DNA of 41,047 nt from Candidatus Margulisiibacteriota bacterium (GCA_018822365.1 JAHJKL010000048.1:1-41047), one strand, 5' to 3'; counted from the first letter of the stretch, positions 159 through 39,430 are shown. Made by a program: numbers and translations. The notes: generated by a model from the letters alone, not told the origin.

Positions 159-186
159 TGAAATTTCCTCAATTATTTAACGATAA
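159..186 (+). promoter_or_regulatory. Sigma-28-like promoter of the transglutaminase/TPR gene
   Basis: TGAAATTT (159-166), a 12-base spacer, then AACGATAA (179-186). The start codon lies 42 bases further on. The same arrangement precedes eight other accessory genes in the window. It resembles the FliA layout TAAAGTTT-N11-GCCGATAA. Sigma assignment is inferred. Confidence 0.6.
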
Positions 187-228
187 TTATATACGAGCGA
201 AAAAATATACTTTAGGGGGCCATTCAAA

Positions 229-2061
229 ATGCGAACACCAGGACCGACAAGTGTCAGACAAGGTTTGCACTGTAACGCTGGTCAACCACCAAAAACAACA
301 TTTGTCAGACAGTTTATTGGTGCTCACCCTTCTCTTGTTCTCCCACAAACCGGCAATCGGAGTCAAGTCTTCGCCGCCCTGCTAAATCATGGCGGCAGTT
401 CATCAGAACGAAATAAAGATCTTTTGGCTGTATTAGAAAAAATGGGGCTCCAGCATCCTATTATGCAGAGCGATTCCGCTGTTTTGGGACATTTAGGAAA
501 ACTCCGGGGAAATGCTCCAGAGATATATTCACCTGTTTATCACTCGCTGTTAATATTAACTTCAATTGTAAATCAATCTGAAGAAATTGCCGTTTCCCTC
601 TCTCGAATAAATTTAAAGATCTTTCCCTCCTATTCAAAAAAGTTAGGCACCGTCTGGGGGCTCCCAACTGTTTCCGGCGGGTTAGGCGTCCGATACAGCG
701 AAGACCCATCGGCGGCCGCCAGGTTGAAATACGGCAGTATCCTTCCCAACCAGATGATCACCCTCCCCCCGGGAGAGCGAGTCGCGACTTGTTTTGAATT
801 CAGCGTACTGTTAATTTCTCTGCTCCGCGCCGCCGGCCTCACCGCTGAATTCAACATGGTAGAGAACGAGTCTCACGCTAATGTCGTCGTTACCATCAGA
901 AACGATTATACCGGCCGCGATCAGTATTATTTATTGGATGCCGCCAGACATTCCTTCGCGGAAATACCAGAAAGGCCAGGCACCATTGTTGACGACGCTA
1001 CTGTCTATATGAAAAGCTGCACCAACCGGATTTTTTGGCGCGTCCAGCAGGACGCGATCGGCCTGGGACATGCCGAATGGTGCCAGGAGCTTAACGACTG
1101 CGTCGCTGGCGCCGCGCTGGCTGGACAAAATCAAAGCCAGAGAACCTTCAACGCCCTGGGGCTCGCCAAACTAAAAATCGGCAATAAGCAAGGGACTATC
1201 CCATTCACCGAACGTGAAATCAACGCCGCGGCGTTTGCCGTCGAGCGGGCCGCTCAACCTGAGTTAGACAAATACTTTACCAGTCAGGGGCTCGGGCCAA
1301 ACCCTTCACCTTCCCAGATTGCCGCCGCTTTTAATCTATTACTCGACAGCGCTGACTCATCATCGTCTGGCCTCAAGCTTGACCGGAGCAATCCCAAAAA
1401 TGGAGTCACGCCCAATAATCGTCTAATTATTAAAATTAAATTGGCGGAGCTCTTCCCGCAAACATTAACCAGCGGCCGCTCTTTCCTGAACAACCTGGAA
1501 AACGCCGTCGCCTGTTTCAAGGTGGCAATCACGCTGGACCCACAATACCGGACCGCCCGCTATAATCTGGCAAAAGCTCTTTTGGATCTGCGACAATACG
1601 GCGACGCCGAAGTTGTTATTCACCAGGCCCTTAATGTCTTTCAAAACGATCGTTACCTCCTCTGTCTGGCGGGGGAAGCGGCTGGCCACCTGGGAGACAT
1701 CAACAACATGGAGCGGTATTATAAAAAAGCGCTGCTGCTCGACCACAATTACGTCATTGAAACGATCGCTGAACGGAACCCAGATGAGAGCCGTCGGGGA
1801 TACTTTATATGGCAGGTTCTAGGTCTAGCCTGGAGTAAAGGCAAAGATTATGAGTCAGCCGCCACCTGCTTCCAGCACGCGCTGGCAATCAATCCTCACG
1901 ACTCGACATCCGCTTTTGAACTCTCCTACGTGCGGCTGAAAATGGGGCATTTGCTGGGTGCGCTCGCCTCTTTCTTTCAGGGGATGCGTTCCCTGCTTAA
2001 CCCAAACAGCCGCTTAATCGCCATTGATCCATTGGAAAACGTAGATGCCGCTGATCAGTAG
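229..2061 (+). CDS. Transglutaminase-like domain protein with C-terminal TPR repeats
   Basis: A 610-residue protein. Residues about 140-260 look like a transglutaminase-like (papain-fold) core. The Cys is in ERVATCFEFSVLL (C188), the His in ESHANVVV (H216) and the Asp in YYLLDAAR (D237), in the order and spacing of the Cys-His-Asp triad. From about residue 420 to 600 there are TPR-like helical pairs, for example YRTARYNLAKALLDLRQYGDA and YESAATCFQHALAINPHD. The first 45 residues are basic and low in predicted order, with no clear signal peptide. The ATG at 229 follows a GGGGG Shine-Dalgarno stretch. The gene overlaps the next ORF by 17 bases, so the two are probably cotranscribed. The fold predicts a peptidase, amidase or crosslinking enzyme; the substrate is unknown. 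Confidence 0.75.
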   Translation: MRTPGPTSVRQGLHCNAGQPPKTTFVRQFIGAHPSLVLPQTGNRSQVFAALLNHGGSSSERNKDLLAVLEKMGLQHPIMQSDSAVLGHLGKLRGNAPEIYSPVYHSLLILTSIVNQSEEIAVSLSRINLKIFPSYSKKLGTVWGLPTVSGGLGVRYSEDPSAAARLKYGSILPNQMITLPPGERVATCFEFSVLLISLLRAAGLTAEFNMVENESHANVVVTIRNDYTGRDQYYLLDAARHSFAEIPERPGTIVDDATVYMKSCTNRIFWRVQQDAIGLGHAEWCQELNDCVAGAALAGQNQSQRTFNALGLAKLKIGNKQGTIPFTEREINAAAFAVERAAQPELDKYFTSQGLGPNPSPSQIAAAFNLLLDSADSSSSGLKLDRSNPKNGVTPNNRLIIKIKLAELFPQTLTSGRSFLNNLENAVACFKVAITLDPQYRTARYNLAKALLDLRQYGDAEVVIHQALNVFQNDRYLLCLAGEAAGHLGDINNMERYYKKALLLDHNYVIETIAERNPDESRRGYFIWQVLGLAWSKGKDYESAATCFQHALAINPHDSTSAFELSYVRLKMGHLLGALASFFQGMRSLLNPNSRLIAIDPLENVDAADQ

Positions 2062-2551
2062 ACTTAGCTCAATTCTCCCGCTTCGCTGGGGAACCGTCGT
2101 CTCGGCTGATAAGCCAGGGGGGGCCAAGGCTTTGTTCTTTCGTGGCATCAAAGGTGAACATCGACCGCTTATTCCGACCGAGGGAAATGACCGTCTCTTT
2201 TTTCTCGCGCCTCGGCAAGAAGTCATGAGACTGCTTGAGGGATACAAAGCAATCGACGAAGGATCAACCAACGGAGCAAACTCCTTGCCTCCCTCCCTAC
2301 GCCGGGAAGTTTTTTTAGGGATAGCGGCTGATTTCGCGGCTTTATTAAATAGCGGGTTAGCTTTTTTAATAGAAAGAAGCCCAGCTGGCACCAGGGAAAA
2401 AACAATCCGCCGGGAAACATCAGGCACTTACTTTTTTTCAACAAATGAGAATCTGACCTTTATTGATGACCACATTCCCCCGGTGAGTCCTTTGGAAATG
2501 ATTTTTCCGGCTGTCGGCCCGCGACCGGATTATTTTCCGCCGAAAAAATAG
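2045..2551 (+). CDS. Unrecognised protein, second gene of the transglutaminase/TPR pair
   Basis: A 168-residue protein of unknown function. It starts inside the end of the transglutaminase/TPR gene (17-base overlap in another frame), which argues for translational coupling and a shared role. It has no signal peptide, membrane segment or recognised motif. The N-terminus is basic, and the C-terminus is rich in Pro and aromatics ([12 protein letters not shown]). Its 3' end overlaps the 3' end of gcvPB on the other strand by 22 bases, leaving no room for a terminator. It could be a partner, inhibitor or substrate of the upstream protein, but nothing in the sequence decides this. Confidence 0.6.
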
Positions 2552-3993
2552 CGCAGGTTAAGGTCTCTGGCCGCTTTCGCTTCATCCAGCCTTCTTACCG
2601 GCGTGGTTTGAGGCGCATTTTTCACCAGCTCCGGCGTTGTTTCGCACTCTTTGGCAATGGCGATCATCGCGTCACAAAATTCGTCCAGGGTCGCTTTTGA
2701 TTCCGACTCGGTCGGCTCGATCATCAGAGACTCTTCCACGATCAGCGGGAAATAGATCGTCGGCGGATGAAACCCGTAGTCGATCAATCTTTTGGCGATA
2801 TCGAGCGCTTTGACCCCGTATTTTTCTTTTTGCCACTTGGCCGACAGGACAAATTCATGCTGACAGGGTCGGTCGTAAGGAAGCCAATAATGTTCTTTGA
2901 GCCGGTTCATCATGTAATTGGCGTTCTCAACCGCCTTTTCAGAAACTTTTTTTAACCCTGCTCCGCCTAAGGAGCGGATATAAGCATATGCTTTAATAAT
3001 AACGTTTATATTGCCATGAAAAGGATGGACCCGGCCGATCGATTTCGGAGAAACGTCAGAAGAAAACTTGTATTTCTTCCCTTTTTTAACTATCCGCGGC
3101 GTCGGAAGAAACGGGACCAGTTTTTTGTTGACCCCTACCGGCCCGGCCCCCGGCCCACCACCGCCGTGCGGTGCAGAAAAAGTCTTGTGTAAGTTGAAAT
3201 GAGCAACATCAAAACCCAGGTCAGCCGGACGGCAGATCCCAAGATTGGCATTGGCATTTGCTCCGTCGTAGTAAAGTAGCCCTCCCGCTTTATGGACCAG
3301 TTCGGCAACCTCCAGAATATGCTCGTCAAATAGTCCCAGAGTATTGGGATTGGTCAGCATTAGCGCGGCGGTGTCTGGCCCAAGCGCCGCTTTGACCGCC
3401 GCAACATCGATATTTCCCCGTTCATTAGACTTAATAACAACCGGTTCGTACCCGACAATCGCCACCGAAGCCGGATTGGTCCCGTGAGAGGAATCGGGAA
3501 TAATGACTTTGCGCCTCTCTTTTTCACCTTTATCCCGGTGATATTCCTTGATCATCATCAGGGCGGTCAACTCACCGTGCGCGCCGGCAGCCGGCTGAAG
3601 GGTAAACGCGTTATAACCAAAGATCGCGCAAAGGTACTGCTCAAAATTGTACAGGAGCTCCAGCATCCCCTGGATATCTTTTTCTTCCTGTAATGGATGA
3701 AGTTCGGTAAAGCCCGGCAAACTGGCAACATCTTCGTTAACTTTGGGGTTGTATTTCATGGTACAGGAACCTAAGGGGTAAAACTGAGTATCAACTGAAA
3801 AATTCATTCGCGACAAGCGGGTAAAGTGGCGGACAACATCAAGCTCGGTCAGTTCCGGCAGGTCAAGGTCGCCCCTGATAAGCTCAGGCGGAATAAGTTT
3901 TTCCAGCTCAACTTCCGGAACATCCAGCTCTGGCAGCGAACAACCGATCGCGCCAGGTGAAGATTTTTCAAATATCAACTTCTCCCTATTCAC
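2530..3993 (-). CDS. gcvPB: Glycine dehydrogenase (decarboxylating) subunit 2, P-protein beta
   Basis: A 487-residue P-protein C-terminal-type subunit of the two-subunit glycine cleavage enzyme, which decarboxylates glycine with PLP and passes aminomethyl to the lipoyl H protein. The PLP lysine is K270 in [20 protein letters not shown], with the usual glycine-rich loop after it. [13 protein letters not shown] (72-84) and the [11 protein letters not shown] motif (166-176) are also family hallmarks. Length fits the family. The partner gcvPA and the T and H proteins are not in this window. The gene begins 17 bases after the ABC ATPase gene on the same strand, so the two are probably cotranscribed although functionally unrelated. 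Confidence 0.95.
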
Positions 3994-4010
3994 CTAATTC
4001 CCTATTCTTC

Positions 4011-5117
4011 CTAGACTATCGCTTTCTGGGTCTCCGGGTCAAAAAAGTGGATCTTTCGCAGGTCCATGACCAGGTCAAGTTCGGCTCCCGGCTTTGGGTC
4101 GGCAAATGTCCCAATGCGGCCGATCATCTGATCTTTCCCCGCCTTGACATAGACATTGATGTCGGAGCCCATCATCTCCCTGAAATCCACTTTAACTTTA
4201 ATATGAAAACGATGCTGCTCTTCCAGCCAGGTGGAAGAAGGAACATCCCAAAGGTCTTCCGGCCTCATTCCAAAAACGACCTCTTTGTCAACATGGTTCG
4301 CCAGCTCGCCGTCAATTTCCGGTGGAACAAAAAAGGTAAAGGCTTCCCCTTCAAAGCTATATTTCCCGGCCTTCTTCCTGATCATCCCCTTGATAAAATT
4401 CATCTGGGGTGAACCAAGGAACCCGGCAACAAAGCGATTGGCCGGCTTTTCATAAATGCTGACCGGATTTTCAACCTGCTGGAGCTCGCCGTTCAGGATC
4501 ACGGCAACCCTCTGCCCCAGGGTCATCGCCTCAACCTGATCGTGAGTCACGTAGATGATCGTCGTCTCCAGGCGCTTGTGGAGCCGCTGGAGCTCCGCCC
4601 GCATCTGGACACGGAGTTTTGCGTCAAGATTGGAGAGTGGCTCGTCCATCAGGAAAACCTGGGGATTGCGGACGATCGCCCGGCCAAGCGCGACCCGCTG
4701 GCGCTGGCCGCCGGAAAGTTGTTTGGGCAATCGATCAAGCAGCTTGGTCAGTTCCAGGCTTTCAGCTGCTTCCTTGACCCGCTCATCGATCTCCTTTTTG
4801 GGCAAACCGCGAAGCTTTAGTCCAAAAGCCAGGTTATCAAATACTTTCATGTGGGGATACAAAGCATAGGATTGGAAGACCATGGCAATGTTCCGGTCTT
4901 TAGGGGGAACATCGTTGATCAGCCGGTCGCCGATATAGATCTTCCCTTCAGAAACTTCTTCAAGCCCGGCGATCATCCGGAGAGTGGTCGTCTTGCCGCA
5001 GCCGGACGGCCCGACCAGTACGACAAACTCCTTGTCTTTGATCTCCAAATTGACGTTCTTGACCGCGACGACATCATCGAAATATTTAAAAACGTTCTCT
5101 AATACGACTTTTGCCAC
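4011..5117 (-). CDS. ABC transporter ATP-binding protein, UgpC/MalK/MsmX type
   Basis: A 368-residue ATPase of the carbohydrate-importer type. It has Walker A GPSGCGKT (36-43), the LSGGQRQR signature, Walker B VFLMDEP, an H-loop in [11 protein letters not shown], and a C-terminal TOBE-like regulatory part (about 240-368). I chose the GTG at 5117 because AAGGAG sits 10 bases upstream and because starting further upstream would run into ribH. MsmX-type ATPases often serve several sugar permeases encoded elsewhere. No permease or binding protein is encoded here, which fits that role. The neighbours are ribH upstream (4-base gap) and gcvPB downstream. Confidence 0.92.
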
Positions 5118-5121
5118 TGGC

Positions 5122-5577
5122 TTATATCTCCTTACCCAGGTTTGCCATTTCAATCGCTGATTGGGCGGCGGCAAACCCTTTATTTGATTTGACTCCGGAG
5201 CGCTCGAGCGCCTGCTCCAGGTTGTCAGTCGTCAAAACGCCAAAGATCACCGGGACACCGGTCTGCAGGCCAACCTGGGCGATCCCCTTGGCCGCTTCGG
5301 AAGCGACATATTCAAAATGCGGCGTTCCACCCCTGACCACCGCGCCAAGGCAGATGACCGCGTCATAGTTCTTGGCAAGCTTCTGCGCGACCAACGGCAT
5401 TTCAAACGCTCCCGGCACCCAGACAATGGTCACATTCTCGTCTTTGGCTCCGTGGCGCTTCAGGCAGTCTTCCGCCCCTCCAACCAATCCTTTCGAGATC
5501 ATTTCATTGAACCGGGAAACGATCAGGCAAAACTTAAGTTTACTTGCTTCCAGATTTCCGGCGATCACTTTTACCAT
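5122..5577 (-). CDS. ribH: 6,7-dimethyl-8-ribityllumazine synthase
   Basis: A 151-residue lumazine synthase, which condenses 3,4-dihydroxy-2-butanone 4-phosphate with the ribityl-aminopyrimidine in the penultimate step of riboflavin synthesis. Family motifs are [16 protein letters not shown] near the N-terminus, VPGAFEMP (substrate loop), and [14 protein letters not shown] with the catalytic His. The ATG at 5577 is preferred over an in-frame TTG nine bases upstream because GAGGGGG lies about 9 bases before the ATG. The start overlaps the end of ribBA by 38 bases. It is the last gene of a ribE-ribBA-ribH cluster. No ribD is present in the window. Confidence 0.95.
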
Positions 5578-6808
5578 GTTTAACAACCCCCTCTAATAAA
5601 TGGCCCAGCTTGCGGGATTTTGTCCGCAAGTATTTTTCGTTAAATTTATTTGACCCCACTTCAAGCGGCAGTCGTTGAGTGATCTTTAGCCCGTATCCCG
5701 CAAGACCAACAACTTTTTTTGGGTTATTGGTCAAGAGTTTGATCGAAGTTAAGCCCAGGTCACAAAGGATCTGCGCCCCGATCCCGTAATCGCGCAGGTC
5801 AGGAGCAAAACCAAGCATTTCGTTCGCTTCAACAGTATCGTACCCCTGCTCCTGCAGTTCGTACGCCCGTAATTTGTCCTTCAGTCCTATTCCCCGCCCT
5901 TCCTGTCTCATGTAAAGCAAAACCCCAAGGCCGCAAAATTCGATCTTTTCCAGAGCTTTGGCCAGTTGCTCGCCGCAATCGCAGCGGAGCGAACCAAACG
6001 CGTCGCCGGTCAAACATTCAGAATGAACGCGGACCAGGACGTCTTTTTTCCCTTTTACTTTCCCCTTGACCAACGCAATATGGCTCTCGCCATTTAAGAT
6101 GTTCTCATAACCCACGGCCGAAAACTCCCCATGTTTGGTCGGCAGTTTTACCGTCGAGATCCGCCTGACCAGCTTTTCGTGGTTCATCCGGTAAGAGATC
6201 AGGTCGGCAACGGTAACGATCTTGAGCTTGTGCCAGCGGGCAAATTCCATAAGCTGGGGGACCCTCGCCATGCTGCCGTCCTGATGAATGATCTCGCAAA
6301 TGACCGCGGCCGGATATAGTCCGGCCATCTTGGCCAGGTCGACCGAAGCTTCGGTATGCCCGGCCCGCCGCAGGACCCCCCCTTCAACAGCGCGCAATGG
6401 GAAGATATGGCCCGGTTTAACCAGGTCGTTCACTTTTGATCTGGGATTGATCAGAACTTCAATGGTCTTTGCCCGGTCCGACGGGGAGATCCCGGTCGAG
6501 ACCCCAAAGCGATGATGCGCGTCAACTGACACGGTAAAGGCGGTCCGGAGTTTTTCCCGGTTGTTCCCGACCATCTGGTCAAGTTCCAATTCGTCGGCCC
6601 GGTCGCCAGTCATGGGAACGCAAACCAATCCTTTGGCATGAGTGATCATAAAATTAACAAGCTCCGGAGTGATCTTTTCCGCCGCCACGACCAGGTCACC
6701 TTCGTTCTCCCGGTCGGCGTCGTCAACCACGACGACAAGTTTTCCGTTACGGATATCTTCTATCGCTTCGGCAATTGTATTGAATTTAATTTTAGATTTT
6801 ACGTTCAT
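5540..6808 (-). CDS. ribBA: Bifunctional 3,4-dihydroxy-2-butanone-4-phosphate synthase / GTP cyclohydrolase II
   Basis: A 422-residue fusion supplying both precursors of riboflavin. The N-terminal RibB part (about 1-205) has the acidic active-site loop [11 protein letters not shown] (29-39) and HTEASVDL. The C-terminal RibA part (about 210-405) has zinc ligands C265, C276 and C278 in [16 protein letters not shown] and the GTP-binding RQEGRGIGL (301-309). Both halves look intact, so both activities are expected. It starts 6 bases after ribE and overlaps ribH, consistent with one transcript. Confidence 0.96.
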
Positions 6809-6814
6809 TTAAGG

Positions 6815-7939: not shown

Positions 7940-7967
7940 TGAAATTATCCAACATTTATGACGATAA
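7940..7967 (+). promoter_or_regulatory. Sigma-28-like promoter of the kinase-like gene
   Basis: TGAAATTA (7940-7947), 12 bases, GACGATAA (7960-7967). The ATG at 7980 is 12 bases further on, so the leader would be only a few bases long. Confidence 0.6.
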
Positions 7968-24782: not shown

Positions 24783-26132
24783 ATGAAACTTACCATGACG
24801 CGGCCTCGTTTGATCACCAGATCATTACTTTTAGCTGGAGCGACAACTCTTGCCGCCTGCGGCTCAACCTGCGGAGGGCAAAAAAGCCAACCCAGCGCTC
24901 CTGCCACAACTATTCCATCAGTATCTGCTTCAACAATAATTCCCCCGGCAGTCGGTACTTCAATCACCAACTCCCTTTTCACTACCCTGGGGATCGTTCC
25001 AACCGAAGTCCACGAATTTAACATGGACGATACTACTGCCTGGGAACGGAGGAGCGGCGCCAACGGCGATCCCTTCAATTGCGTCTTCAAACCTGATAAG
25101 ATTTCTTTTTCTAATGACGGCGTATTGAAACTCTTTTTATCGAAAGGTGAGTGCGCGGAATACCGAACAGTCAAAAAATATAGTTTTGGTTTTTTTGAAG
25201 TTCGTATGCGCATTGCTAGTGGCAGTGGTCTCATGGCCGGCTCATTTTTCTTATACACCGGGACTTATGGCAAACCCAATCATCACGAGACCGACATTGA
25301 AGGCAAAGGCAAAGATTGTTCTATCCAACTAAACCACTATGGCCAGGGGAAAGGAAACCATGAATTAGTTCTAACCCACGATCGGCTGGGGTTTGATCCT
25401 TGCGCCGATTTTCATAATTATGGTTTTAAATGGGCACAGGACAGCATTACTTATTATATTGATGAAAAAGAAGTTCATCGGGTCACCACGGATATTCCTT
25501 CCCAACCGGGACAAATAATGACCAACATTTGGGCCGGGACAAAAACGGTAGATGGTTGGCTCGGCGCTTACACCCCTGGCAAAACTTACACAACTCAATA
25601 CGATTGGGTAAGATACGCGCCGCTGACTGCCGAAAGTCAACCGGCATCACCCCCCACCACTGCGTCAACTCCGCTTACAGCAAGACCTTTGGCTCCATCA
25701 ACAGCCTCTGTCGCTTCGGTCAATGTTCTACCGATCAAGACAATCCAACAAAACAATTACGCCTACAATGGCGGTGCTCTGCGGGAAGAAAACGGGGTTT
25801 ACTATTTTAGCGCTAGCGGCTCCAGAGATCCTGGTTTTGGCATTATTACCGGAAACGCTCCTCTGGCCGGACGAAAAACCGTCCATTTTAAGGTCCGCGG
25901 ATCCGTTGCCAATCAGGAAAATGGAGCCAGATTGATCACCCAGGTTTACAGCGATAAGAATAACGCAAGCCACCCGGCGATCACTTATGATCCGGTCAAT
26001 GTCACCAGCGATTGGACTGAAGTCGTGATCTTCCTGGGCAATGAAGTGGAAAAAGCGCAAAAACTCCAGTGGCAGTTGAACAGCAACAACGGTTCGTGTC
26101 AGATCGAGGTCAAAAATATTCGCTTCGAATAA
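24783..26132 (+). CDS. Lipoprotein with a GH16-like glycosidase domain and C-terminal beta domain
   Basis: A 449-residue predicted lipoprotein. The signal peptide ends in the lipobox LAAC (C26), followed by a Ser/Thr/Pro linker (about 30-70). Residues about 75-285 resemble glycoside hydrolase family 16: FGFFEVRMRIASGSGLMAGSF and the catalytic-type HHETDIEGKG, where E169, D171 and E173 match the E-x-D-x-E pattern. A second Pro/Thr linker (about 286-310) joins a beta-rich C-terminal domain (about 320-449) that could bind carbohydrate. The expected role is beta-glucan (laminarin, lichenan or similar) cleavage at the cell surface. The AGGAG five bases before the ATG supports the start. It ends 3 bases from the convergent cimA stop. 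Confidence 0.8.
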   Translation: MKLTMTRPRLITRSLLLAGATTLAACGSTCGGQKSQPSAPATTIPSVSASTIIPPAVGTSITNSLFTTLGIVPTEVHEFNMDDTTAWERRSGANGDPFNCVFKPDKISFSNDGVLKLFLSKGECAEYRTVKKYSFGFFEVRMRIASGSGLMAGSFFLYTGTYGKPNHHETDIEGKGKDCSIQLNHYGQGKGNHELVLTHDRLGFDPCADFHNYGFKWAQDSITYYIDEKEVHRVTTDIPSQPGQIMTNIWAGTKTVDGWLGAYTPGKTYTTQYDWVRYAPLTAESQPASPPTTASTPLTARPLAPSTASVASVNVLPIKTIQQNNYAYNGGALREENGVYYFSASGSRDPGFGIITGNAPLAGRKTVHFKVRGSVANQENGARLITQVYSDKNNASHPAITYDPVNVTSDWTEVVIFLGNEVEKAQKLQWQLNSNNGSCQIEVKNIRFE

Positions 26133-27742: not shown

Positions 27743-27769
27743 TGAAATCCCCCCCTGAAGTAGCGATAA
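27743..27769 (+). promoter_or_regulatory. Sigma-28-like promoter of the epimerase/radical SAM pair
   Basis: TGAAATCC (27743-27750), 11 bases, AGCGATAA (27762-27769). It is the only member with an 11-base spacer. Leader to ATG 27800 is 30 bases and includes AAGGGAG. Confidence 0.55.
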
Positions 27770-27799: not shown

Positions 27800-28852
27800 A
27801 TGTCTAATAATTATTCGATCGGTCATCATGTTTTTATTGCCGGTTTTTCCGGCTTCCTGGGCAAAGCGCTTAAAACTGGTTTCGCCAGGAACGCTGACAA
27901 ATTATATTTGCAAAACCGGAGCGGCATTTTTGTTGAAGAAAAAGGAGCAAAGACCCCTCGCCAGATTTCCCGCGACCCCTACGATCAAAAGAACCTGCAA
28001 ACCGCCCTTGCTGATTCGCAGACCTGCCTGAATGCTGTTGGCTTCCCCAGCGGATACGGAGAAATCAGCCCTGAAATTGTGGCTAAAAGCTTAGCCGGCA
28101 ACCTTTTACACACCGATCAGCTCGCGCAAACCGCCGCCGAAACCGGGGTAAAAATGTTTATTTCGCTTTCGAGCATGGCGGTCTATTATCAATTTCTTTC
28201 TCCGCAAGTCAGGGTGGCAAATGAAAACTCGCCGCTTGAGCTCCCACCCCAACTTCTTGAAATGGCCGAAGCCGGTCTTGCCAGGTTCCGGGCTCATCCG
28301 TCAAGTTCAGCCTTGACCAGCGGAGAGGACGTTTTCCCCCAAGCCTTGCTGGAAAACATCAAAAACACTCGCCTCGCTTACTCTCTAGGAAAGTATCTGG
28401 CCGAAGCCAGCGTGAGAAATTGGTTTCCGCCTCAAAACAGCAGGCTCCTTCGGATAGCCAATATTTATATTGCGGGAGACAGTGGGCAGCGCATTATCCC
28501 TTCGTTCATCAGAAAATTCGCCGCCGGCGAGGACGTGGTAGTTCACAACCTCTCCCGTAATTTTATTTACTGGGCTGATTTTGAAAACTTATTGGACCGC
28601 ATCATCTCCCGGACCGAGCCGCCGGCCGGCCCGGTCAATGTTTATGCCCCGGGGTGCACGGTCCCGCTCCCTGACCTGGCAAGGGAATTGGGGTCATACT
28701 TCCCCCTCTCTCTCTCCCGCATTGTTCTCAATGAAAACATCTCCGAACCGGATATTGATTTTACTTCGCGATACCCGGACCTTTACGCGGCAAACTTCAC
28801 TTCAGTAACCGAAGGGCTCAAAAATGTCATTCCCCTTCAAGGAGAAAAATAA
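27800..28852 (+). CDS. NAD(P)-dependent epimerase/dehydratase family protein (extended SDR)
   Basis: A 350-residue Rossmann protein. The nucleotide loop is GFSGFLG (15-21). The catalytic Ser lies in SLSSMAVYY (about 122-130) and the YxxxK pair is Y194/K198 in AYSLGKYLAE. The distance from the Ser to the Tyr (about 70 residues) is roughly twice normal because of an insertion at about 132-190. The C-terminal substrate domain has RIANIYIAGDSGQRIIPSFI, as in sugar-nucleotide epimerases. The substrate is not recognisable. The gene ends 1 base before the radical SAM gene, so the two form a two-gene operon. Confidence 0.8.
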   Translation: MSNNYSIGHHVFIAGFSGFLGKALKTGFARNADKLYLQNRSGIFVEEKGAKTPRQISRDPYDQKNLQTALADSQTCLNAVGFPSGYGEISPEIVAKSLAGNLLHTDQLAQTAAETGVKMFISLSSMAVYYQFLSPQVRVANENSPLELPPQLLEMAEAGLARFRAHPSSSALTSGEDVFPQALLENIKNTRLAYSLGKYLAEASVRNWFPPQNSRLLRIANIYIAGDSGQRIIPSFIRKFAAGEDVVVHNLSRNFIYWADFENLLDRIISRTEPPAGPVNVYAPGCTVPLPDLARELGSYFPLSLSRIVLNENISEPDIDFTSRYPDLYAANFTSVTEGLKNVIPLQGEK

Positions 28853-28853
28853 A

Positions 28854-30098
28854 ATGTCGTCAACGATCGTGAGAACACAAGATATAGTAAAGCGTTTCAT
28901 TCGTTCCGGAGGCAATACTCCCCTGAACTACGAAAAGCACCTGGTGCAGCAGCAATGGTCGCGTATCCTCAAAGTGCTCCAGGGAAAAGTCGTCCCTCCC
29001 TATGAAGTCGAGATCCAGCCTTCCAGCGCCTGCAACATCAGCTGCATCTGGTGCATCGGCGAAAGCATTCAAAACGCCAATCAGGTCATCCGTCTCCCCA
29101 ACGCCCTAAAAAAAACAAAGGATATGCTCAAAGTCGTCGCCGGAATAGTCGATTATAAGGTCCGCGACAACTACACTGAAGGCGGGGAGCATAGAATGCG
29201 CGATTATCGCGTCGAAACCGTAAAGTTTTCCGGATTTATCGGAGACCCACTGGTCGCTAAAGAAGCGACCCTGGCCGGCATGCAGTATCTCTCGCAAAAT
29301 TACGTCCGGGTCGGCCTTTTCACTAATGGCATCATGATGGACGAAACAACCTGGGACACTATCGCCAACGCCGGCTTCCTCCATCTTAGCCTTGATGCCG
29401 GCTCCCCTGAAACTTTTGCCTATCTGAAATGCAAACGGGACCTGGCTCTCGGAGAAAAATACTTTGGCTTGATAATGCGCAACCTGGAAGGGCTGGCGGC
29501 CCGCAAAGCAAGATCGGCCGGCGCGGCTGCCGACCTTAATGTCGGATATATTCTTAATCCCTATAATTATCGCGAACTGCCTGGAATTGCTCATCGCCTG
29601 AAAGAGACCGGTGTCAATTACCTGAGGCTAAAAATTGACATCGCGGACCAATTGACCCTCAGTCTACCCCAGATAAGGGAAGCCAAAGAGCTGATCGGCG
29701 AAGTCAAAGCCACACTGGTAGGCCCGGATTTCAAATTAGTGGAAACCCATCAGCTGGAAGGCCCGCCCGATGAACGGCGGTGTTTTTCCCGCTGTTACAC
29801 GCATTTCCTTTGGGGGACGGTCGGCTCCGACGGCAATGTTTATCCATGCGACCATAACACCTACCCCGGAGCCCCGCACTACGGCAACGCGATCAACACC
29901 CCCTTTCGCGAAGTCTGGGAAGGTCCGATGCACGCCCTGATCAGCCGCGGCCTCCCCAATATCTGTCCCCCTACCTGCTCCCCTTTTGCCACCCGCGTCA
30001 ATCCTTTTCTTGAAGCACTGAAAAGACAGCAACGCAAACATGGCCTGGATGGGCTGGAAAAGATTCGGCAGGAGATAGAAGGGATGAAATCAACTTGA
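28854..30098 (+). CDS. Radical SAM protein with SPASM-like C-terminal cysteines
   Basis: A 414-residue radical SAM enzyme. The cluster motif CxxxCxxC is C60, C64 and C67 (ACNISCIWC). The core shows VKFSGFIGDPL and LFTNGIMM. The C-terminal part (about 305-385) carries more cysteines, including RCFSRCYTHFLWG, GNVYPCDHNTY and NICPPTCSPF, a SPASM/twitch-like auxiliary cluster site. ATG 28854 is chosen because AAGGAG lies 9 bases upstream; an earlier in-frame ATG is inside the epimerase gene. SPASM enzymes modify peptides or carry out sugar and alcohol dehydrogenation. With an epimerase-type partner, tailoring of a nucleotide sugar or small metabolite is plausible, but the substrate is unknown. 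No precursor peptide is evident next door. Confidence 0.85.
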   Translation: MSSTIVRTQDIVKRFIRSGGNTPLNYEKHLVQQQWSRILKVLQGKVVPPYEVEIQPSSACNISCIWCIGESIQNANQVIRLPNALKKTKDMLKVVAGIVDYKVRDNYTEGGEHRMRDYRVETVKFSGFIGDPLVAKEATLAGMQYLSQNYVRVGLFTNGIMMDETTWDTIANAGFLHLSLDAGSPETFAYLKCKRDLALGEKYFGLIMRNLEGLAARKARSAGAAADLNVGYILNPYNYRELPGIAHRLKETGVNYLRLKIDIADQLTLSLPQIREAKELIGEVKATLVGPDFKLVETHQLEGPPDERRCFSRCYTHFLWGTVGSDGNVYPCDHNTYPGAPHYGNAINTPFREVWEGPMHALISRGLPNICPPTCSPFATRVNPFLEALKRQQRKHGLDGLEKIRQEIEGMKST

Positions 30099-30118: not shown

Positions 30119-30146
30119 TGAAATCCTGACAAATATTTCACGATAA
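30119..30146 (+). promoter_or_regulatory. Sigma-28-like promoter of the 169-residue unknown gene
   Basis: TGAAATCC (30119-30126), 12 bases, CACGATAA (30139-30146). The ATG at 30155 is 8 bases further on, so the transcript would be essentially leaderless. Confidence 0.6.
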
Positions 30147-30667: not shown

Positions 30668-30695
30668 TGAAATTTCTGCCGGAAAATGCCGATAT
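30668..30695 (+). promoter_or_regulatory. Sigma-28-like promoter of the 256-residue unknown gene
   Basis: TGAAATTT (30668-30675), 12 bases, GCCGATAT (30688-30695). This -10 half is identical to the classical SigD form. Leader to ATG 30739 is 43 bases. Confidence 0.65.
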
Positions 30696-31575: not shown

Positions 31576-32595
31576 ATGTTTAAACCAATTTATAGGATTA
31601 CCCCATACCTATTGAATTTGATCGATGAAGCGAGCTCGCTCAAGACCTGGATCGAGCTAGCGCCGCTTCAGCTCGCCTGGCTTCCGCTGATGCAAAAAGA
31701 CGCCCGGGCGAGACAAGCCCACTTCTCAACTTCGATCGAAGGGAATGCCCTGACCCTGCCAGAGGTCAAGGCGGTCGACCGGGGAGAAACAGTCGGCCAT
31801 TCGCGCCAGCACGAGCTGGAAGTCACCAATTATTTAAAAGCGATGATCTGGATCTCTCATAACACCAAAGCGAATATCGATGAAAAGCTGGTCTTTAATC
31901 TCCACCAGATCATCACTCACGGCCTGCTAGACGAAAAAAAGAGCGGCTGTTATAAAACCAGGCAAAACTATGTGGTCGATGACCATAAGATCAGGGTCCA
32001 TACCCCAACCTCTCCATCTGAAACCCCGGCCGCGGTCGCCGATCTCCTGGCCTGGGTCAACAGCAACGAAGCCAAAAATCTACACAGCATTCTGGTTTGC
32101 GCGATCTTCCACCACCGCTTTGTTTCGATCCACCCGTTCAGCGACGGGAACGGCCGGCTGGCCCGCGCCATCAGCACCCTGATCCTCTACCAGCGCGAAT
32201 TTGACCTCCACCATATTTTTAGTCTTGACGAATTCTTTGCCGGCGAACTGAAACGCTACTATCAAAAGATCCAGCAGGCCAGAGGCCTCGACTACGACCT
32301 GACCCATTGGATCGAATACGTCGCTGAAGGGGTTGTCGCCACGCTGAAACGGACCAAAAAGCGGATCGAAGACCTTCAGGTCACCTCCAGTTATCCGCTC
32401 GCCATCTCCAGGCGCCAGGAAGAGACCCTTCGCCTCCTGCGCGACCGCCGCTCGGTCCAGGTCAACGATCTGATGAGCGAACTGAAGGTCTCCCGGGCCC
32501 GGATCAACCAACTCATCGCCCCGCTGATCAAAGGGGGGATTATCATCAAGGAAGGAGAGAGTCGGGCGACCCGCTACAAATTAAACATCCATTAA
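31576..32595 (+). CDS. Fic family protein with N-terminal inhibitory motif and C-terminal winged helix
   Basis: A 339-residue Fic protein. The catalytic motif HPFSDGNGRLAR (186-197) is complete (HxFxxGNGRxxR), so AMP (or other NMP) transfer to hydroxyl side chains is expected. The autoinhibitory helix is present N-terminally (STSIEGN, 51-57, with E55), making it a class II Fic. Residues about 275-339 form a winged-helix DNA-binding domain (VNDLMSELKVSRARINQLI). This Fic-wHTH layout is common on bacterial chromosomes, often as a self-regulating single gene. It uses an ordinary sigma-70 promoter, unlike the genes around it. No adjacent antitoxin is needed because the inhibitor is internal. Confidence 0.92.
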   Translation: MFKPIYRITPYLLNLIDEASSLKTWIELAPLQLAWLPLMQKDARARQAHFSTSIEGNALTLPEVKAVDRGETVGHSRQHELEVTNYLKAMIWISHNTKANIDEKLVFNLHQIITHGLLDEKKSGCYKTRQNYVVDDHKIRVHTPTSPSETPAAVADLLAWVNSNEAKNLHSILVCAIFHHRFVSIHPFSDGNGRLARAISTLILYQREFDLHHIFSLDEFFAGELKRYYQKIQQARGLDYDLTHWIEYVAEGVVATLKRTKKRIEDLQVTSSYPLAISRRQEETLRLLRDRRSVQVNDLMSELKVSRARINQLIAPLIKGGIIIKEGESRATRYKLNIH

Positions 32596-32596
32596 A

Positions 32597-32624
32597 TGCA
32601 ATTTTTACCGGTTTATTACGATAT
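32597..32624 (+). promoter_or_regulatory. Sigma-28-like promoter of the 335-residue unknown gene
   Basis: TGCAATTT (32597-32604), 12 bases, TACGATAT (32617-32624). It has one mismatch in the upstream half. Leader to ATG 32643 is 18 bases with AGAGGAA. Confidence 0.5.
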
Positions 32625-32642
32625 ATAACCAGAGGAACCTAT

Positions 32643-33650: not shown

Positions 33651-33661
33651 TCGAAATAGCC

Positions 33662-33689
33662 TGAAATTATACCCATTTTTTCTCGACAA
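33662..33689 (+). promoter_or_regulatory. Sigma-28-like promoter of the 234-residue unknown gene
   Basis: TGAAATTA (33662-33669), 12 bases, CTCGACAA (33682-33689). The downstream half has one departure (CGACAA). Leader to ATG 33705 is 15 bases with GGGAGA. Confidence 0.5.
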
Positions 33690-33704
33690 ATATAGGGAGA
33701 AACA

Positions 33705-34409
33705 ATGACAAATCGGGCCCTATATTTTTTACCAAGATTACACCAATACTCCGAAAAAGATCTGCGGCTTGCTCATCGTTCGGCTTTTACTCTTTTGCGG
33801 CGGCGAAGCAAAACATTGGCCCACGATCCAAACGGCGACCAATCAGTTGAACAGGCCAAAAGGATCGTCGTTATGAGCCTGGCGGCTCAAAATAAGTATG
33901 ATCACATATTTACCACCGACGGATTAGAGGCATCGCTTCGCGCCTTCGATAACTATCAAAAATACGCCCGATTACTAGCCGATTACCCTGATCCCTTAAA
34001 AACACTCCCTGGCGGACTGCAATTTAATTTAATCGCCGGGTTTAATTCTCTTGAAATTGAACAGGTCGGTACCGGTCTGCGGCTCAACGCCATGCCACAG
34101 GTCCACCCCATCAACCCAACTGATGATTTTATCATGATCCGGGTACTGGCTTGCGCTCACGCCCAGATAACCTTTATGTATCAATGGTGCATGGACCTGG
34201 CAGGCACCCGGCCAAGAAATTATCAGGATGTCTACATTGATCGGCCCGTTCGCCTGGGAACAGAAGAGGTCAAAAACTTTTTACAGCCTTTCCAGGGTAA
34301 CCTTTCCTATCATAGTGAGTTTTTCCCTCCAGTGTTATATTTTACTGCCAGATCTTTAATCGTTGCCCCAGACACAGCCCTCCCCTTTAATATTACAATC
34401 CCATACTAA
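33705..34409 (+). CDS. Unrecognised 234-residue protein
   Basis: Function unknown. The N-terminal 40 residues are strongly basic (HRSAFTLLRRRSK). The middle holds an EQAKRIVVMSLAAQNKYDHIF helix and the C-terminus is beta-rich with many aromatics. There is no signal peptide or clear membrane segment. GGGAGA seven bases before the ATG supports the start. It is the last of the plus-strand genes with a sigma-28-like element. Confidence 0.6.
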   Translation: MTNRALYFLPRLHQYSEKDLRLAHRSAFTLLRRRSKTLAHDPNGDQSVEQAKRIVVMSLAAQNKYDHIFTTDGLEASLRAFDNYQKYARLLADYPDPLKTLPGGLQFNLIAGFNSLEIEQVGTGLRLNAMPQVHPINPTDDFIMIRVLACAHAQITFMYQWCMDLAGTRPRNYQDVYIDRPVRLGTEEVKNFLQPFQGNLSYHSEFFPPVLYFTARSLIVAPDTALPFNITIPY

Positions 34410-34412
34410 TTT

Positions 34413-34441
34413 TTGATTTTCTCTATTATTGGTGCTAAAAT
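34413..34441 (+). promoter_or_regulatory. Promoter of the uracil-DNA glycosylase operon
   Basis: TTGATT (34413-34418), 17 bases, TAAAAT (34436-34441) with an extended TGC just before it. Only 8 bases separate it from the ATG at 34450. Confidence 0.6.
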
Positions 34442-34449
34442 TTTAAGTA

Positions 34450-35091
34450 ATGGGATTATTTGCTACCGAACCAGATCTTAGCCATCTTTCCTACATCGAG
34501 ATCGAACAACTCGCCCAAACCTGCGTGAAATGCCCTCTTTCCAATGGCCGTAACAAAGTCGTCTTTGGCAACGGCCCGGTCCCCTGCGACCTGATGATCA
34601 TTGGCGAAGCGCCAGGAGCTGACGAAGACGAACAAGGGTTCCCATTTGTCGGCCGGGCCGGACAGCTCCTTACCCAAATCCTCGGATCGGTCGGGATCAA
34701 GCGGCCAGACGATGTTTATATCGCCAATACCGTCAAATGCCGCCCGCCGAACAACCGGGCGCCACTGGCGACCGAACAGGCGGCCTGCGCCCCTTACCTG
34801 GCCGCCCAGGTCCGACTGGTCAACCCAAAAATTATTATTCTGCTCGGCGCGCCGGCGGTCAAAGCGATCCTGAAGCTGGACGAACCGATGAGCACGATCC
34901 GCGGCCGCTGGTTCAAGTTCCCCGGCAACCAGGAGATATCGGTAATGCCCCTCTTCCATCCGGCCTATCTCTTGCGCAATCCATCAAAAGAAAAAGGGGC
35001 CCCAAAATGGATCACCTGGCAGGACATGCAGGAGGTCAAGAACGCGCTGGAATATTTGAAGAAAGTCGAAGAACTGTCCACTGTCAAATGA
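34450..35091 (+). CDS. Family 4 uracil-DNA glycosylase with a 4Fe-4S cluster
   Basis: A 213-residue type-4 UDG, which removes uracil from DNA. The Fe-S ligands are C25, C28, C97 and C113 (CVKC, TVKCRPP, AACAP), in the family pattern. The active-site motif is GEAPGADEDEQGFPFVGRAG (52-71) and the second motif is HPAYLLR near residue 176. Length is typical. The stop codon overlaps the DUF362 start (ATGA). The start codon sits 8 bases after the promoter, implying a leaderless transcript. Confidence 0.95.
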   Translation: MGLFATEPDLSHLSYIEIEQLAQTCVKCPLSNGRNKVVFGNGPVPCDLMIIGEAPGADEDEQGFPFVGRAGQLLTQILGSVGIKRPDDVYIANTVKCRPPNNRAPLATEQAACAPYLAAQVRLVNPKIIILLGAPAVKAILKLDEPMSTIRGRWFKFPGNQEISVMPLFHPAYLLRNPSKEKGAPKWITWQDMQEVKNALEYLKKVEELSTVK

Positions 35092-36011
35092 ATGTCTTTT
35101 TCTCTTCAGACATCTCAAAAGCCAAAGAAATATTTGAAACTGCCGGCTTCAGCAAGATCATCTTCCAAGACGATGCCGTCGCCCTTAAGATCCATTTTGG
35201 CGAACCGGGTAATACCGCCTACCTAAAGCCCGACCGGGTCAGCCCGATCGCCCGGCTGATCAGACAGCTTGGCGGGCGTCCCTTTTGGACCGACGCGAAC
35301 ACCTTATACCAGGGCAAACGAAACGACAACGAGACCCATTTACAAACCGCCCACGAACATGGTTATACTTTGGCAAATACCGGAGGGGAAACAATCATCG
35401 CCGATGAACCGGGAGACCAGCGGGGCCGCGAATTGGCCGTAAATTACCCCCATTTCAAAAAGCTTTACGTCGCAGCCGGAACGCTGACCGCCGGAGCGAT
35501 GATCGTCTTAACCCACTTCAAAGGCCATGAAACGACCGGCTTTGGCGGCGCCCTGAAAAATATAGGCATGGGGCTGGGGAGCAAACTGGGAAAGCTAAAA
35601 ATGCACCAGGATTGCCTTCATTGCCCCGAAGTCAAAACCTGCCGCAAAAACCAGACCCTTGAAGCCTGCTGGTTCGGCTCCCCCGAATTGGTCCAGGAGA
35701 AAATTGCCGAATATGCCGCCGGGATCGCCGCCCAATTCAAAGGGAAGATTGCCTATATAAACTTTATCACCGACGTTTCACCGAATTGCGACTGTTATCC
35801 GCACAACGACCCGCCGGTCGTTCCGGACATCGGGATCGCCGCCTCTTTTGACCCGGTCGCCCTCGACCAGGCCTGCGTGGACCTGGTCAACAAAGCGGCC
35901 GGCAACGATAAGTTCCGCGCTCTCTGGCCAGCCGTCGACTGGGGCATCCAGCTCTCTCACGCCGAGAAGATCGGCCTGGGTAGCCGGAAGTATGCGCTTG
36001 TGGTAAAATAA
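35088..36011 (+). CDS. DUF362 domain protein with iron-sulfur-type cysteines
   Basis: A 307-residue DUF362 protein. The family core shows [12 protein letters not shown], the [12 protein letters not shown] segment, [23 protein letters not shown], and the C-terminal [14 protein letters not shown]. Cysteines C176, C179, C185 and C194 ([10 protein letters not shown]) plus C234 and C236 could hold an Fe-S cluster in place of the usual ferredoxin tail. The ATG at 35088 overlaps the UDG stop by 4 bases. An earlier reading frame over the UDG gene is an out-of-register shadow. Function of the family is poorly defined. It is cotranscribed with the UDG and followed closely by pta. Confidence 0.88.
36001..36009 (+). 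promoter_or_regulatory. Possible extended -10 for pta
   Basis: TGGTAAAAT (36001-36009) in the last codons of the DUF362 gene, 9 bases before the pta ATG. It matches the other short-leader promoters but lies within coding sequence. Confidence 0.35.
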
Positions 36012-36018
36012 AAAAATC

Positions 36019-37014
36019 ATGGACTTAATCGCCGAGATCTGGAACAAAGCCAAGCGCCTCAATAAAACGATAGTCCTCCCCGAAACCGAAGACGCCCGGA
36101 CCCTGAAAGCGGCCGAACTCGCCGTTAAAAGCAAGATCGCTAAAATTATCTTGATCGGCGAAGCCGACAAGATCAAAAAGACCCCCGGCGCCGGCGACGT
36201 CGACCTCTCCGGCATGACCATCGTCAATCCGCTCGAGCATCCCAAACTTGATAAATACATCCAGGTATTAAAAGACAAACGGGCCGCCAAAGGAATGACG
36301 ATCGAAAAAGCGCGCCAGCTTCTGACCAGGGACTTTCCATATTTCGGAGCAATGCTGGTCGACCAGGGGGAAGCCGACGGCATGGTTTCCGGCGCGACCC
36401 ACACCACCGCCGACACTCTCCGGGCGACGATCGACTGTATCGGCAAAGGGACCGGACAATCGATCATCTCCAGCTATTTTGTGATGATCCTGCCGGACAA
36501 GACCTTTGGCGAGGAAGGGATCCTTTTTTACGCCGACTGCGGCGTCGTCCCCAACCCGACCGCGGAACAGCTGGCCGATATCGCCATCCAAACCGCCGAC
36601 CAGTTTGTGAAGCTCGTCGGCCGCGAACCACGGGTCGCCATGCTCTCTTTTTCGACCAAAACTTCGGCGGTCCATCCGGACGTCGATAAGGTCATAAACG
36701 CGACTAAGATCGCCAAAGAAAAAAAGCCCAACCTTCTCCTTGATGGAGAGCTTCAGCTCGACGCCGCTATTGTCCCGGAGATCGGCTCCCGTAAAGCGCC
36801 GGGGAGCATCGTCGCCGGTCGGGCTAATGTTCTTATTTTCCCTGATCTTGATGCAGGTAATATCGGTTATAAACTAACCCAGCGGTTGGCTAAAGCCCAG
36901 GCTTTCGGGCCAATTTTGCAGGGGGAAGCGAAACCGGTCAACGATCTTTCCCGGGGTTGCAGTGTAGAAGACATCCTCAATGTTATCGCGATAACCGCGG
37001 TCCAGGCACAGTAG
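36019..37014 (+). CDS. pta: Phosphate acetyltransferase
   Basis: A 331-residue Pta of the short type, interconverting acetyl-CoA and acetyl phosphate. Family motifs: [46 protein letters not shown] and [20 protein letters not shown]-like residues (here [14 protein letters not shown]). AckA is not adjacent. Seven bases separate it from the DUF362 gene. Phosphate butyryltransferase is less likely given length and motifs. Its product would feed acetate or acetyl-phosphate metabolism in a fermentative lifestyle. Confidence 0.95.
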
Positions 37015-37021
37015 CTTTTGC

Positions 37022-37442
37022 ATTTTTGATCGTATAGCAAGCGACATCCGAGCCGGCAATTAATCTTTTTTGAACGCGTAAAACGGCCGAAACTGTTTTG
37101 TCCGGATTTTGGCTCATGCCTTCAACACAGACTTTTTTGGCCTAATTTTAATTTACCTGCGCGCCTTAACAGATCGGTTATCACCGCCTCCGCTACCCCA
37201 GCCTGCTCACCCAAATCCTGGCCGTTTTCTTTGGCTTTTTGAAATAAAGCGGCGGCTTTCAAGCGGCACTCGATCGCTCCGGGCTTGGCGCGGGCATAAT
37301 CGCAGACCCAGGCGGCAGGTCGCTTTAGATATATCCGGGCTGCAATAGCCGCAGGCCGGGCAGGACTGGATCCACGTTTCCATAGTTGAGCGGTACATTT
37401 CGGTCGGCCTGGCATCCAGGTCCGGCGAGCAAAAAAAACAGC
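37022..37442 (-). pseudogene. Remnant of a zinc-ribbon protein (DUF2225-like)
   Basis: Three coding blocks in three different frames on the minus strand. The first (37442 to about 37310) has CFFC, then METWIQSCPACGYCSPDIS, a CxxC...CPxCG zinc ribbon. The second (about 37316 to 37130) reads AAWVCDYARAKPGAIECRLK and ends LLRRAGKL. The third (37117 to about 37022) reads NPDKTVSAVLRVQKRLIAGS and DVACYTIKNA. Together they look like one bacterial zinc-ribbon family member, broken by a deletion and two frame changes. The family name is a weak recollection. It lies between pta and the HNH-RecQ gene, in an eroded zone. Confidence 0.5.
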
Positions 37443-37461
37443 TTGACGAACCGAGCAGATT

Positions 37462-39378
37462 TTAGTCAAGGGCTAGGAGATGGGAGGGGCTAGGCTTGCT
37501 CTCTCTGCCGCCAGGGCGTCTATTATTTAAAGCTTGTTTTATGCAAATATTTCTGCAGCAATTATCACAACACTTCGGTGCTACCGGAAGAGCAACAAGA
37601 TTCGCCTGGTCAAAACCCTTTCTTAGCGCGCGTACCAGGTGTTTAAACCCGTCGATGAGACGAACAATTAACCGACCGATCCCATCCGTTACTCCGTTTA
37701 AAATAGTGACGTCCCCGTAATATGAAAGCAAGAACTGCCGGCGGCATTCTTTCGTACTTACATACTCGACCAATTTAGCCAGCTCGTCATATCTCATTTT
37801 TTCCGCTTGCCCCAGATCCCGGTAATCGTTATAAAGGTTTTTATCCGACTTGATCGCTCGTATTGTCCCGTCGCTCTGATCAAACGACACATAACCCCTT
37901 TCGCACAACAACTCTCTGGCAATCTTATACTTCTCTCGCTCATACTGGTCATGGGCATAGCACTTTTCAATTTCCTTATCATTGGCTAACCCATCGATCG
38001 AACATCCTACTGCGGAACTATAAACTCGCTTAATATCGGCAATATTAACGCTTTTTCCGATTAGATAGACCTGCTTGCTTTCATTACCCTGGTCATACAA
38101 TATTACACTCTCAACCTCGGCACCATTCCTACCTGCCCGGCCGCTTTCCTGATAATAACAATTTATCGACTCCGGCAGATCGTAATTAACAATATAGTCA
38201 ATATCCTGGATGTCTATCCCCATACCGAACGCCTTGGTGGCAACCATTACGGTTTTCGTGCCGTAAATCGCATCATAGTTTTGGTTATTCTGTTTCGCGC
38301 CCATTTTTCCAACATATTTGACACTCTCGATCCCGCGGCTTTTTAACAATGCGCGAACCTCATGGACGGTTTTTTGCCAGGCACAATAAATTATCCCCTT
38401 TTTGCCGTTTCGCGCAATAATATATTCTACTAACGCGGCCTGCTTGTCCGTCTCATGGCGATAGCGATTGACTCGATAATAGATGTTCTTTCGATTAAAC
38501 CCCTTGATGAACGTATTGGGCTTGCTCATGACCAGTTTATCCCTTATCTCCGCCTGCATGAGCTTGTTCGCGGAAGCGGTGATCGCCAGGATGGGGATCG
38601 GCCCCAGGGCTTGCCGAACTTTAGCTATTTTGGAATAACTTGGCCTGAAGCCCAGCCATTCCTTGACACAGTGCGCCTCGTCGACAACGATCAAATTGAT
38701 CTTGATCATTCGCAATTGTTCAATGAATTCCTCCGACAAGCGCTCCGGCGCGATGTAAAGCAGTTTAAAATACCCTGCCGCGACCATAGCCAGTCTTTTT
38801 TCTCTTTCTTCCTTACTGAGATCGCTGTTGATATAAGTAGCCGGTATATTCTTTCTGATCAGGGAAGTCACCTGATCATGCATTAAACTTTTGAGGGGAG
38901 AAAACACCAGCACGATCCCTGTTTGATATCCCAGGGCAGGCAACTGGAAACAAAGTGATTTCCCTGCCGAGGTGGGCATGACGAGCATTGTATCCTTGCC
39001 TTTTAGTAGGCTTTCGATCGTTTCCTTTTGGCCTATTTTAAAATCGCTGTAGCCAAAATAGCTTAAAAGGTAGTAAAGATCAGAAAACTTATTATCAATC
39101 AGACCTATGTGCCCAAGGAAGCGCCGGATCTTCCTGTTAAGGAAGCGAAAGAATCGTTGACCAAGAGTGGCCTGGACCTGGGGGTGGATAAGACAATGAC
39201 ATTTATTACAAAGCGTAATTAAGTTTGATAACTCGTGAGATCCGCTTTCTGAAATAGGGATTATATGATGAACATACAGCAGGCTTTTTTCACCGCATTT
39301 TTGGCAAGCATGCTGGTCTCTATTTTTAACTTTGGCGCGTATTTCTTCCCAATTACTGGGATACTTTTTTGACAACAT
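37462..39378 (-). CDS. HNH nuclease-RecQ helicase fusion
   Basis: A 638-residue fusion. Residues 1-66 are an HNH domain: CxxC at C25/C28, the catalytic HH at 37-38, N52, and C57/C60 with H61 and H65 (TLCNKCHCLIH). A basic linker (about 68-95) leads to a RecQ-type SF2 helicase: motif 0 with Q117, Walker A TSAGKSL (136-142), DEAH (233-236), HCVKEW, and motif VI ESGRAGRNG. The RecQ zinc subdomain has C545 and KCCDNCC at about 602-608, with about 55 residues between them, longer than usual. No HRDC domain follows. DNA nicking or cleavage coupled to unwinding is expected. It carries a sigma-28-like element upstream, on the minus strand, and lies next to a macro-domain pseudogene. Confidence 0.85.
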   Translation of the reverse strand: MLSKKYPSNWEEIRAKVKNRDQHACQKCGEKSLLYVHHIIPISESGSHELSNLITLCNKCHCLIHPQVQATLGQRFFRFLNRKIRRFLGHIGLIDNKFSDLYYLLSYFGYSDFKIGQKETIESLLKGKDTMLVMPTSAGKSLCFQLPALGYQTGIVLVFSPLKSLMHDQVTSLIRKNIPATYINSDLSKEEREKRLAMVAAGYFKLLYIAPERLSEEFIEQLRMIKINLIVVDEAHCVKEWLGFRPSYSKIAKVRQALGPIPILAITASANKLMQAEIRDKLVMSKPNTFIKGFNRKNIYYRVNRYRHETDKQAALVEYIIARNGKKGIIYCAWQKTVHEVRALLKSRGIESVKYVGKMGAKQNNQNYDAIYGTKTVMVATKAFGMGIDIQDIDYIVNYDLPESINCYYQESGRAGRNGAEVESVILYDQGNESKQVYLIGKSVNIADIKRVYSSAVGCSIDGLANDKEIEKCYAHDQYEREKYKIARELLCERGYVSFDQSDGTIRAIKSDKNLYNDYRDLGQAEKMRYDELAKLVEYVSTKECRRQFLLSYYGDVTILNGVTDGIGRLIVRLIDGFKHLVRALRKGFDQANLVALPVAPKCCDNCCRNICIKQALNNRRPGGRESKPSPSHLLALD

Positions 39379-39402
39379 ATGCTTAAGCCTTGCCTCCCCT
39401 CA

Positions 39403-39430
39403 TTATCCCCACTATTTAGCCTAAATTTCA
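39403..39430 (-). promoter_or_regulatory. Sigma-28-like promoter of the HNH-RecQ gene
   Basis: Minus strand: TGAAATTT (39430 to 39423), 12 bases, GGGGATAA (39410 to 39403). Leader to ATG 39378 is 24 bases. It is the only minus-strand member of the set, which argues against a simple strand or repeat artefact. Confidence 0.55.

Follow-up and report, generated by a model that had tools for sequence, protein, structure and literature searches.

Analysis of a 41,047-nt stretch of DNA from a Candidatus Margulisiibacteriota bacterium (here called the window) revealed nine promoter-like sites, each positioned upstream of an accessory gene (Table 1). The nearest named genome is candidate division WOR-1 bacterium RIFOXYB2_FULL_45_9, i.e., Candidatus Saganbacteria. 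The coordinates and sequences of all nine sites were confirmed as given in the original prediction, and the start codons were found 8 to 43 bases downstream, as it had claimed. A paralogue of the TPR protein at C42:18426 likewise lies downstream of a site. The mRNA from the promoter at position 30119 is predicted to be nearly leaderless. The site on the minus strand is the least certain of the nine, and the HNH-helicase encoded behind it lacks the shared N-terminal composition (see below). The window also contains a SoFic-like Fic-domain gene, a relative of which (L312:982-2004) is located near flhA in another genome (G029). PDB sequence searches with three of the orphan members returned nothing useful. 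A reading of the locus as a defence island was rejected. The PADLOC matches of the window members involve generic domains (of kinases, Fic proteins, radical SAM enzymes, and helicases), and taken as a whole, the set does not form a defence cluster.

Table 1. Promoter sites and associated genes in the 41,047-nt window (sister, sister genome; 12/12, hexamer bases kept in the sister genome)
Feature	Position	Strand	Remarks
Sigma-28-type promoter	159..186	+	Exact match; 42 nt upstream of TPR gene; no homologue in fetched part of sister
TPR protein, 610 aa	229..2061	+	Regulon gene; N-terminus acid-poor, basic
Sigma-28-type promoter	7940..7967	+	Exact match; 12 nt upstream of kinase gene; 12/12
Ser/Thr protein kinase, 362 aa	7980..9068	+	Regulon gene; Pfam Pkinase 1e-16
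Sigma-28-type promoter, -10 GGATAA	24717..24744	+	One mismatch; 38 nt upstream of GH16 gene; 12/12
Glycoside hydrolase family 16, 449 aa, lipoprotein-type signal	24783..26132	+	Regulon gene
Sigma-28-type promoter, 15-nt spacer	27743..27769	+	30 nt upstream of epimerase gene; 12/12 and 15-nt length kept
NAD-dependent epimerase	27800..28852	+	Regulon gene; radical SAM/SPASM gene 28824-30098 next
Sigma-28-type promoter	30119..30146	+	Exact match; 8 nt upstream of ATG; sister region diverged, not alignable
Orphan protein, 169 aa	30155..30664	+	Regulon gene; no match in Pfam or NCBIfam
Sigma-28-type promoter, CGATAT	30668..30695	+	One mismatch; 43 nt upstream of orphan gene; sister sequence diverged
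Orphan protein, 256 aa	30739..31509	+	Regulon gene; Fic-domain gene 31576-32595 next
Sigma-28-type promoter, TGCAAT / CGATAT	32597..32624	+	Two mismatches; matrix 22.8 bits; 18 nt upstream of orphan gene; 12/12
Orphan protein, 335 aa	32643..33650	+	Regulon gene; no match in Pfam, NCBIfam, or PDB
Sigma-28-type promoter, CGACAA	33662..33689	+	One mismatch; 15 nt upstream of orphan gene; 12/12
Orphan protein, 234 aa	33705..34409	+	Regulon gene
Candidate sigma-28-type promoter, GGATAA	39403..39430	-	One mismatch; 24 nt upstream of HNH-helicase gene; no homologue in fetched sister region
HNH-DEAD helicase, 638 aa, resembles DpdF/PsyrT helicases	37462..39378	-	

The strict motif occurs four times in the window, compared to 0.01 times in shuffled sequences. 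In the whole genome (1.68 Mb, 88 contigs), 30 exact copies were counted versus none of the reversed pattern; with at most one mismatch and fixed spacing on both strands, 75 copies were counted versus 4. The stretches around the sites and the flagellar genes were fetched. Among the 77 fetched sites, 73 are located outside called genes, mostly just upstream of start codons, and 60 are followed within 60 bases by a reading frame that begins with ATG and spans 60 codons or more. A scan with a 35-column matrix revealed 76 intergenic matches above 14 bits in 410 kb, compared to 2 in the reversed control. Additional weaker matches precede proteins similar to regulon members. The nine sites of the window therefore represent a real motif, but only about an eighth of the genome set. 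All 31 genomes of the class hold 10 to 74 sites each, versus 0 to 3 in controls. An exact copy within a gene just upstream of rplW (L192, C30:15009-15036) is probably fortuitous, its conservation being that of coding sequence.

Three lines of evidence, each independent of how the sites were selected, indicate that the motif is a promoter. A purine is present 7 nt past CGATAA in 66 of 71 sites (P = 1e-13; this position was not selected for), preceded by a pyrimidine in 50 of the 71, and the same purine is found in 29 of 29 sites of a genome from another family. The distance from CGATAA to the ATG peaks at 6 to 9 nt (18/60 sites; 11/29 in the other-family genome). The start codon thereby coincides with the purine or lies no more than three bases away from it, and about one-third of the messages are accordingly predicted to have no leader or almost none. 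Comparison with orthologous regions of a sister genome, which were partly picked near the sister's own motif copies and thus carry a mild bias, revealed 284 of 288 identical hexamer positions versus about 74% identity in the spacer (Fisher 5e-21). The window sites were mapped to the sister genome by synteny alone; five of them (7940, 24717, 27743, 32597, and 33662) could be aligned, and all 12 hexamer bases are kept in each. The purine 7 nt past CGATAA is the putative transcript start, judged by this signature, and lies within the 6 to 9 bases previously predicted. The motif is almost certainly a genome-wide promoter class; a regulator-binding site or dispersed repeat without promoter function would also come in dozens of copies, but this reading is most improbable given the fixed 16-nt spacing around a freely varying spacer, the purine start signal at a constant distance, and the sense-oriented copy that precedes each gene.

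The -10 element of the motif is CGATAA. The Escherichia coli sigma-28 consensus is TAAAGTTT-N11-GCCGATAA (PMC2859248), and when the AAA of both motifs is aligned, the AAA-N17-CGATAA register is identical. The -35 element is GAAATT(T) instead of TAAAG, and the GC of the extended -10 element shows no preference among 70 sites. The motif is a variant of the sigma-28 promoter and not its canonical form. The assignment to the sigma-28 family is borne out by the shared register and by the FliA/WhiG-family factors encoded inside flagellar operons (see below), and the sites are very probably promoters of this family.

The genes behind these promoters encode three Ser/Thr kinases, two histidine kinases, guanylate cyclase, RelA/SpoT, and HD domains, TPR proteins with transglutaminase, a methyltransferase, an alpha/beta hydrolase, glycoside hydrolases of families 16 and 116, and aminotransferase, arginase-like, and S-layer domains. 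About half of the members have no Pfam match, and most are not related to one another. One RelA/SpoT-type enzyme behind a motif (L184:5502-7673) is about 70 residues longer at its start and carries a proline-rich, basic extension; a second RelA/SpoT-domain protein with a site is encoded at L205:2884-5298. None of the housekeeping genes inspected for the original prediction was preceded by the motif, but genome-wide, a few do carry a site. The most prominent is the primary sigma gene rpoD, located behind dnaG, with a motif 18 nt upstream (L201, C61:77874-77901), all 12 hexamer bases of which are kept in the sister genome. This sigma factor may be subject to the same control.

The members share an unusual N-terminal composition. 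In residues 2 to 30 of the 51 members without Sec-type signals, Asp plus Glu account for 4.4%, versus 11.7% in neighbouring genes (P = 1e-13), and Arg accounts for 11.1% versus 5.5%. This bias is confined to about the first 30 residues, does not vary with leader length, and was not seen in codon-atypical control genes; in a second genome, it is weaker (Asp plus Glu, P = 0.03; Arg, P = 0.001). Substitutions in these stretches fall on codon positions 1, 2, and 3 in numbers of 159, 90, and 233, and this third-position bias supports the view that the N-termini are translated. Acid-poor, Arg-rich stretches are typical of type III export signals, although they do not prove export. A shared export signal would be the simplest reading of the common N-terminus. 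Some members (rpoD, typA, and an Rrf2-type regulator) look plainly cytoplasmic; rpoD and the Rrf2 regulator, together with the HNH-helicase of the window, are among the exceptions with the most acidic N-termini. The regulon could instead be a genuine sigma-28 regulon with intracellular products that serve development or signalling in step with the completion of the basal body, as the many signalling enzymes (Ser/Thr and histidine kinases, guanylate cyclase, RelA/SpoT, and HD proteins) and the conserved site of rpoD would suggest. This reading is considered doubtful, since acid-poor, Arg-rich first 30 residues in unrelated proteins are unexpected for cytoplasmic enzymes.

The window itself contains no sigma factor or flagellar gene, as originally noted, but the genome encodes both elsewhere. 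The proposed search for a sigma-28-family gene revealed two genes of the FliA/WhiG family besides rpoD. The first is part of the operon flgI-flgJ-sigma-flgB-flgC-fliE-fliF. Orthologues that are 60 to 95% identical within the class occur in 30 of the 31 class genomes and adjoin basal-body genes in every case; 29 of these 30 genomes share the operon order, the thirtieth being interrupted by a contig end, and FlgJ was not recognised in some of them. The best solved relatives of this protein are WhiG (6pfv) and FliA (1rp3 and 6pmi). Its score against TIGR02479 (FliA_WhiG) is 141 bits, which is below the curated cut-off of 189.6 but the best among all NCBIfam families. Regions 2 and 4 are present, and region 3 was not recognised. 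Structure prediction was confident for regions 2 and 4 only, and the predicted fold matched sigma factors, FliA and WhiG ranking near the top, albeit with low TM-scores. The matrix scan found no sites upstream of the flagellar operons or these sigma genes, and sigma orthology across the phylum failed on its own to separate site-rich from site-poor families. The FliA-like factor of the basal-body operon probably reads these promoters. The second gene (L185, C52:25618-26214) encodes a short FliA-family sigma factor without region 3 and is located behind flhA. That this second factor is the reader is conceivable because it belongs to the FliA/WhiG family, follows flhA in 11 of the 18 class genomes examined, and has a 34% relative likewise encoded behind this gene in three site-rich genomes from outside the class. 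In seven class genomes that still have many sites, the second factor was not found at this position and may lie elsewhere, whereas the first factor is present in 30 of 31 class genomes; a role of the second factor as the reader is unlikely.

Pfam analysis confirmed genes for P- and L-ring proteins, rod proteins, FliE, FliF, the ATPase, FliP, FliQ, FliR, FlhB, FlhA, FliK, and FliM/FliN-type proteins. The FlhA export gate is encoded in 30 of 31 class genomes. In contrast, neither flagellin nor the FliG torque domain (FliG_C) was found in any of the 31 genomes; FliG is shortened to 156 residues and lacks this domain. MotA is absent from both genomes tested, that of the organism itself and a complete sister genome. 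Positive controls for the flagellin, FliG_C, and MotA searches matched in known flagellates. An export machine without filament or motor may be a protein-delivery device. Alternatively, the machine might still assemble an unrecognised protein into a filament for motility or adhesion, and the late flagellar regulon would then be of the ordinary kind; P-ring, L-ring, rod, hook-type, and FliK genes are still present, but the absence of flagellin and the torque domain from 31 genomes and of the MotA family from two makes this very unlikely. Outside the class, those families of the phylum that have flagellin carry two FlhA genes. Eight such genomes (G033, G035, G038, G040, G043, G046, G048, and G051) encode a second FlhA plus flagellin and FliG_C, as though the filament-less machine existed beside a normal flagellum.

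Taken together, these results favour, with a probability of roughly 0.6, a sigma-28 regulon that is uncoupled from motility and whose products are probably exported by a flagellar machine lacking a filament. Points against it are that no site was found upstream of the flagellar operons or the two FliA-like genes, the sub-threshold family score and unrecognised region 3 of the basal-body factor, the existence of a second FliA-family gene, the weaker N-terminal bias in the second genome, and the members that look cytoplasmic. In motile cells, sigma-28 directs the synthesis of filament and chemotaxis proteins after hook completion. For WOR-1, the promoter class and its conservation, the sigma genes, the absence of the filament and torque domain, and the N-terminal bias are established, and we infer which sigma factor reads the promoters, the timing, and the export. 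The sites very probably act as -35/-10 promoters of a FliA/WhiG-family regulon of about 70 genes, from which transcripts would start 7 nt past CGATAA, often at the ATG or just before it. The reader would most likely be the FliA-like factor from the flgI-flgJ-sigma-flgB-flgC-fliE-fliF operon. The machine retains the FliK ruler, the rod with its P- and L-rings, the ATPase, and the export gate but has neither flagellin nor the FliG torque domain. Sigma-28 would instead activate kinases, cyclases, hydrolases, and orphan proteins with acid-poor, Arg-rich N-termini, and these proteins would most likely leave the cell through the filament-less machine. That the regulon products are indeed its cargo has close to even chances at best. 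Somewhat more tentative is the extension that the whole class converted the flagellum into a machine dedicated to delivery, in which the sigma-28 checkpoint would control effectors, tens per genome, that can be identified by the motif. Much of the orphan and eukaryote-like gene pool of this uncultured class would be explained as one regulon, the promoter tag could list candidate exported proteins in any class genome, and the system would be a natural case of a flagellar late-gene switch retained after motility loss. No paper on this system was found in the library searched, and a survey of the metabolism of Saganbacteria makes no mention of flagella or secretion.

The system resembles the late regulon of E. 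coli sigma-28 (FliA) in its CGATAA -10 element and AAA-N17-CGATAA register, in the location of a sigma gene among flagellar genes, and in a start a few bases past the -10 element (PMC2859248), which here is predicted from a sequence signature. It differs in that the WOR-1 -35 element is GAAATT(T), the extended -10 GC is not kept, and the targets are genes other than those for filament and chemotaxis proteins. Streptomyces WhiG also serves a non-motility programme, and FliA and WhiG are the best solved relatives of the WOR-1 factor; unlike WhiG, the latter is encoded within a flagellar basal-body operon. Buchnera likewise retains basal bodies and the export gate without a filament, in a role that is unknown but suspected to be transport (PMC8109811). 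In contrast to Buchnera, in which no secreted proteins have been recognised, WOR-1 has a large co-regulated set of candidate cargo, and its filament-less state is class-wide. Non-flagellar type III secretion systems, including the Myxococcales intermediate, are also flagellum-derived machines without motility parts and have been proposed to serve in protein translocation (PMC3459982). The flagellum-specific FlgH, FlgI, and rod genes argue against such a system in WOR-1, where the machine, which keeps the rod and P/L-ring proteins, is still flagellar in type and where, unlike in non-flagellar systems, the candidate cargo is tagged by sigma-28 promoters.
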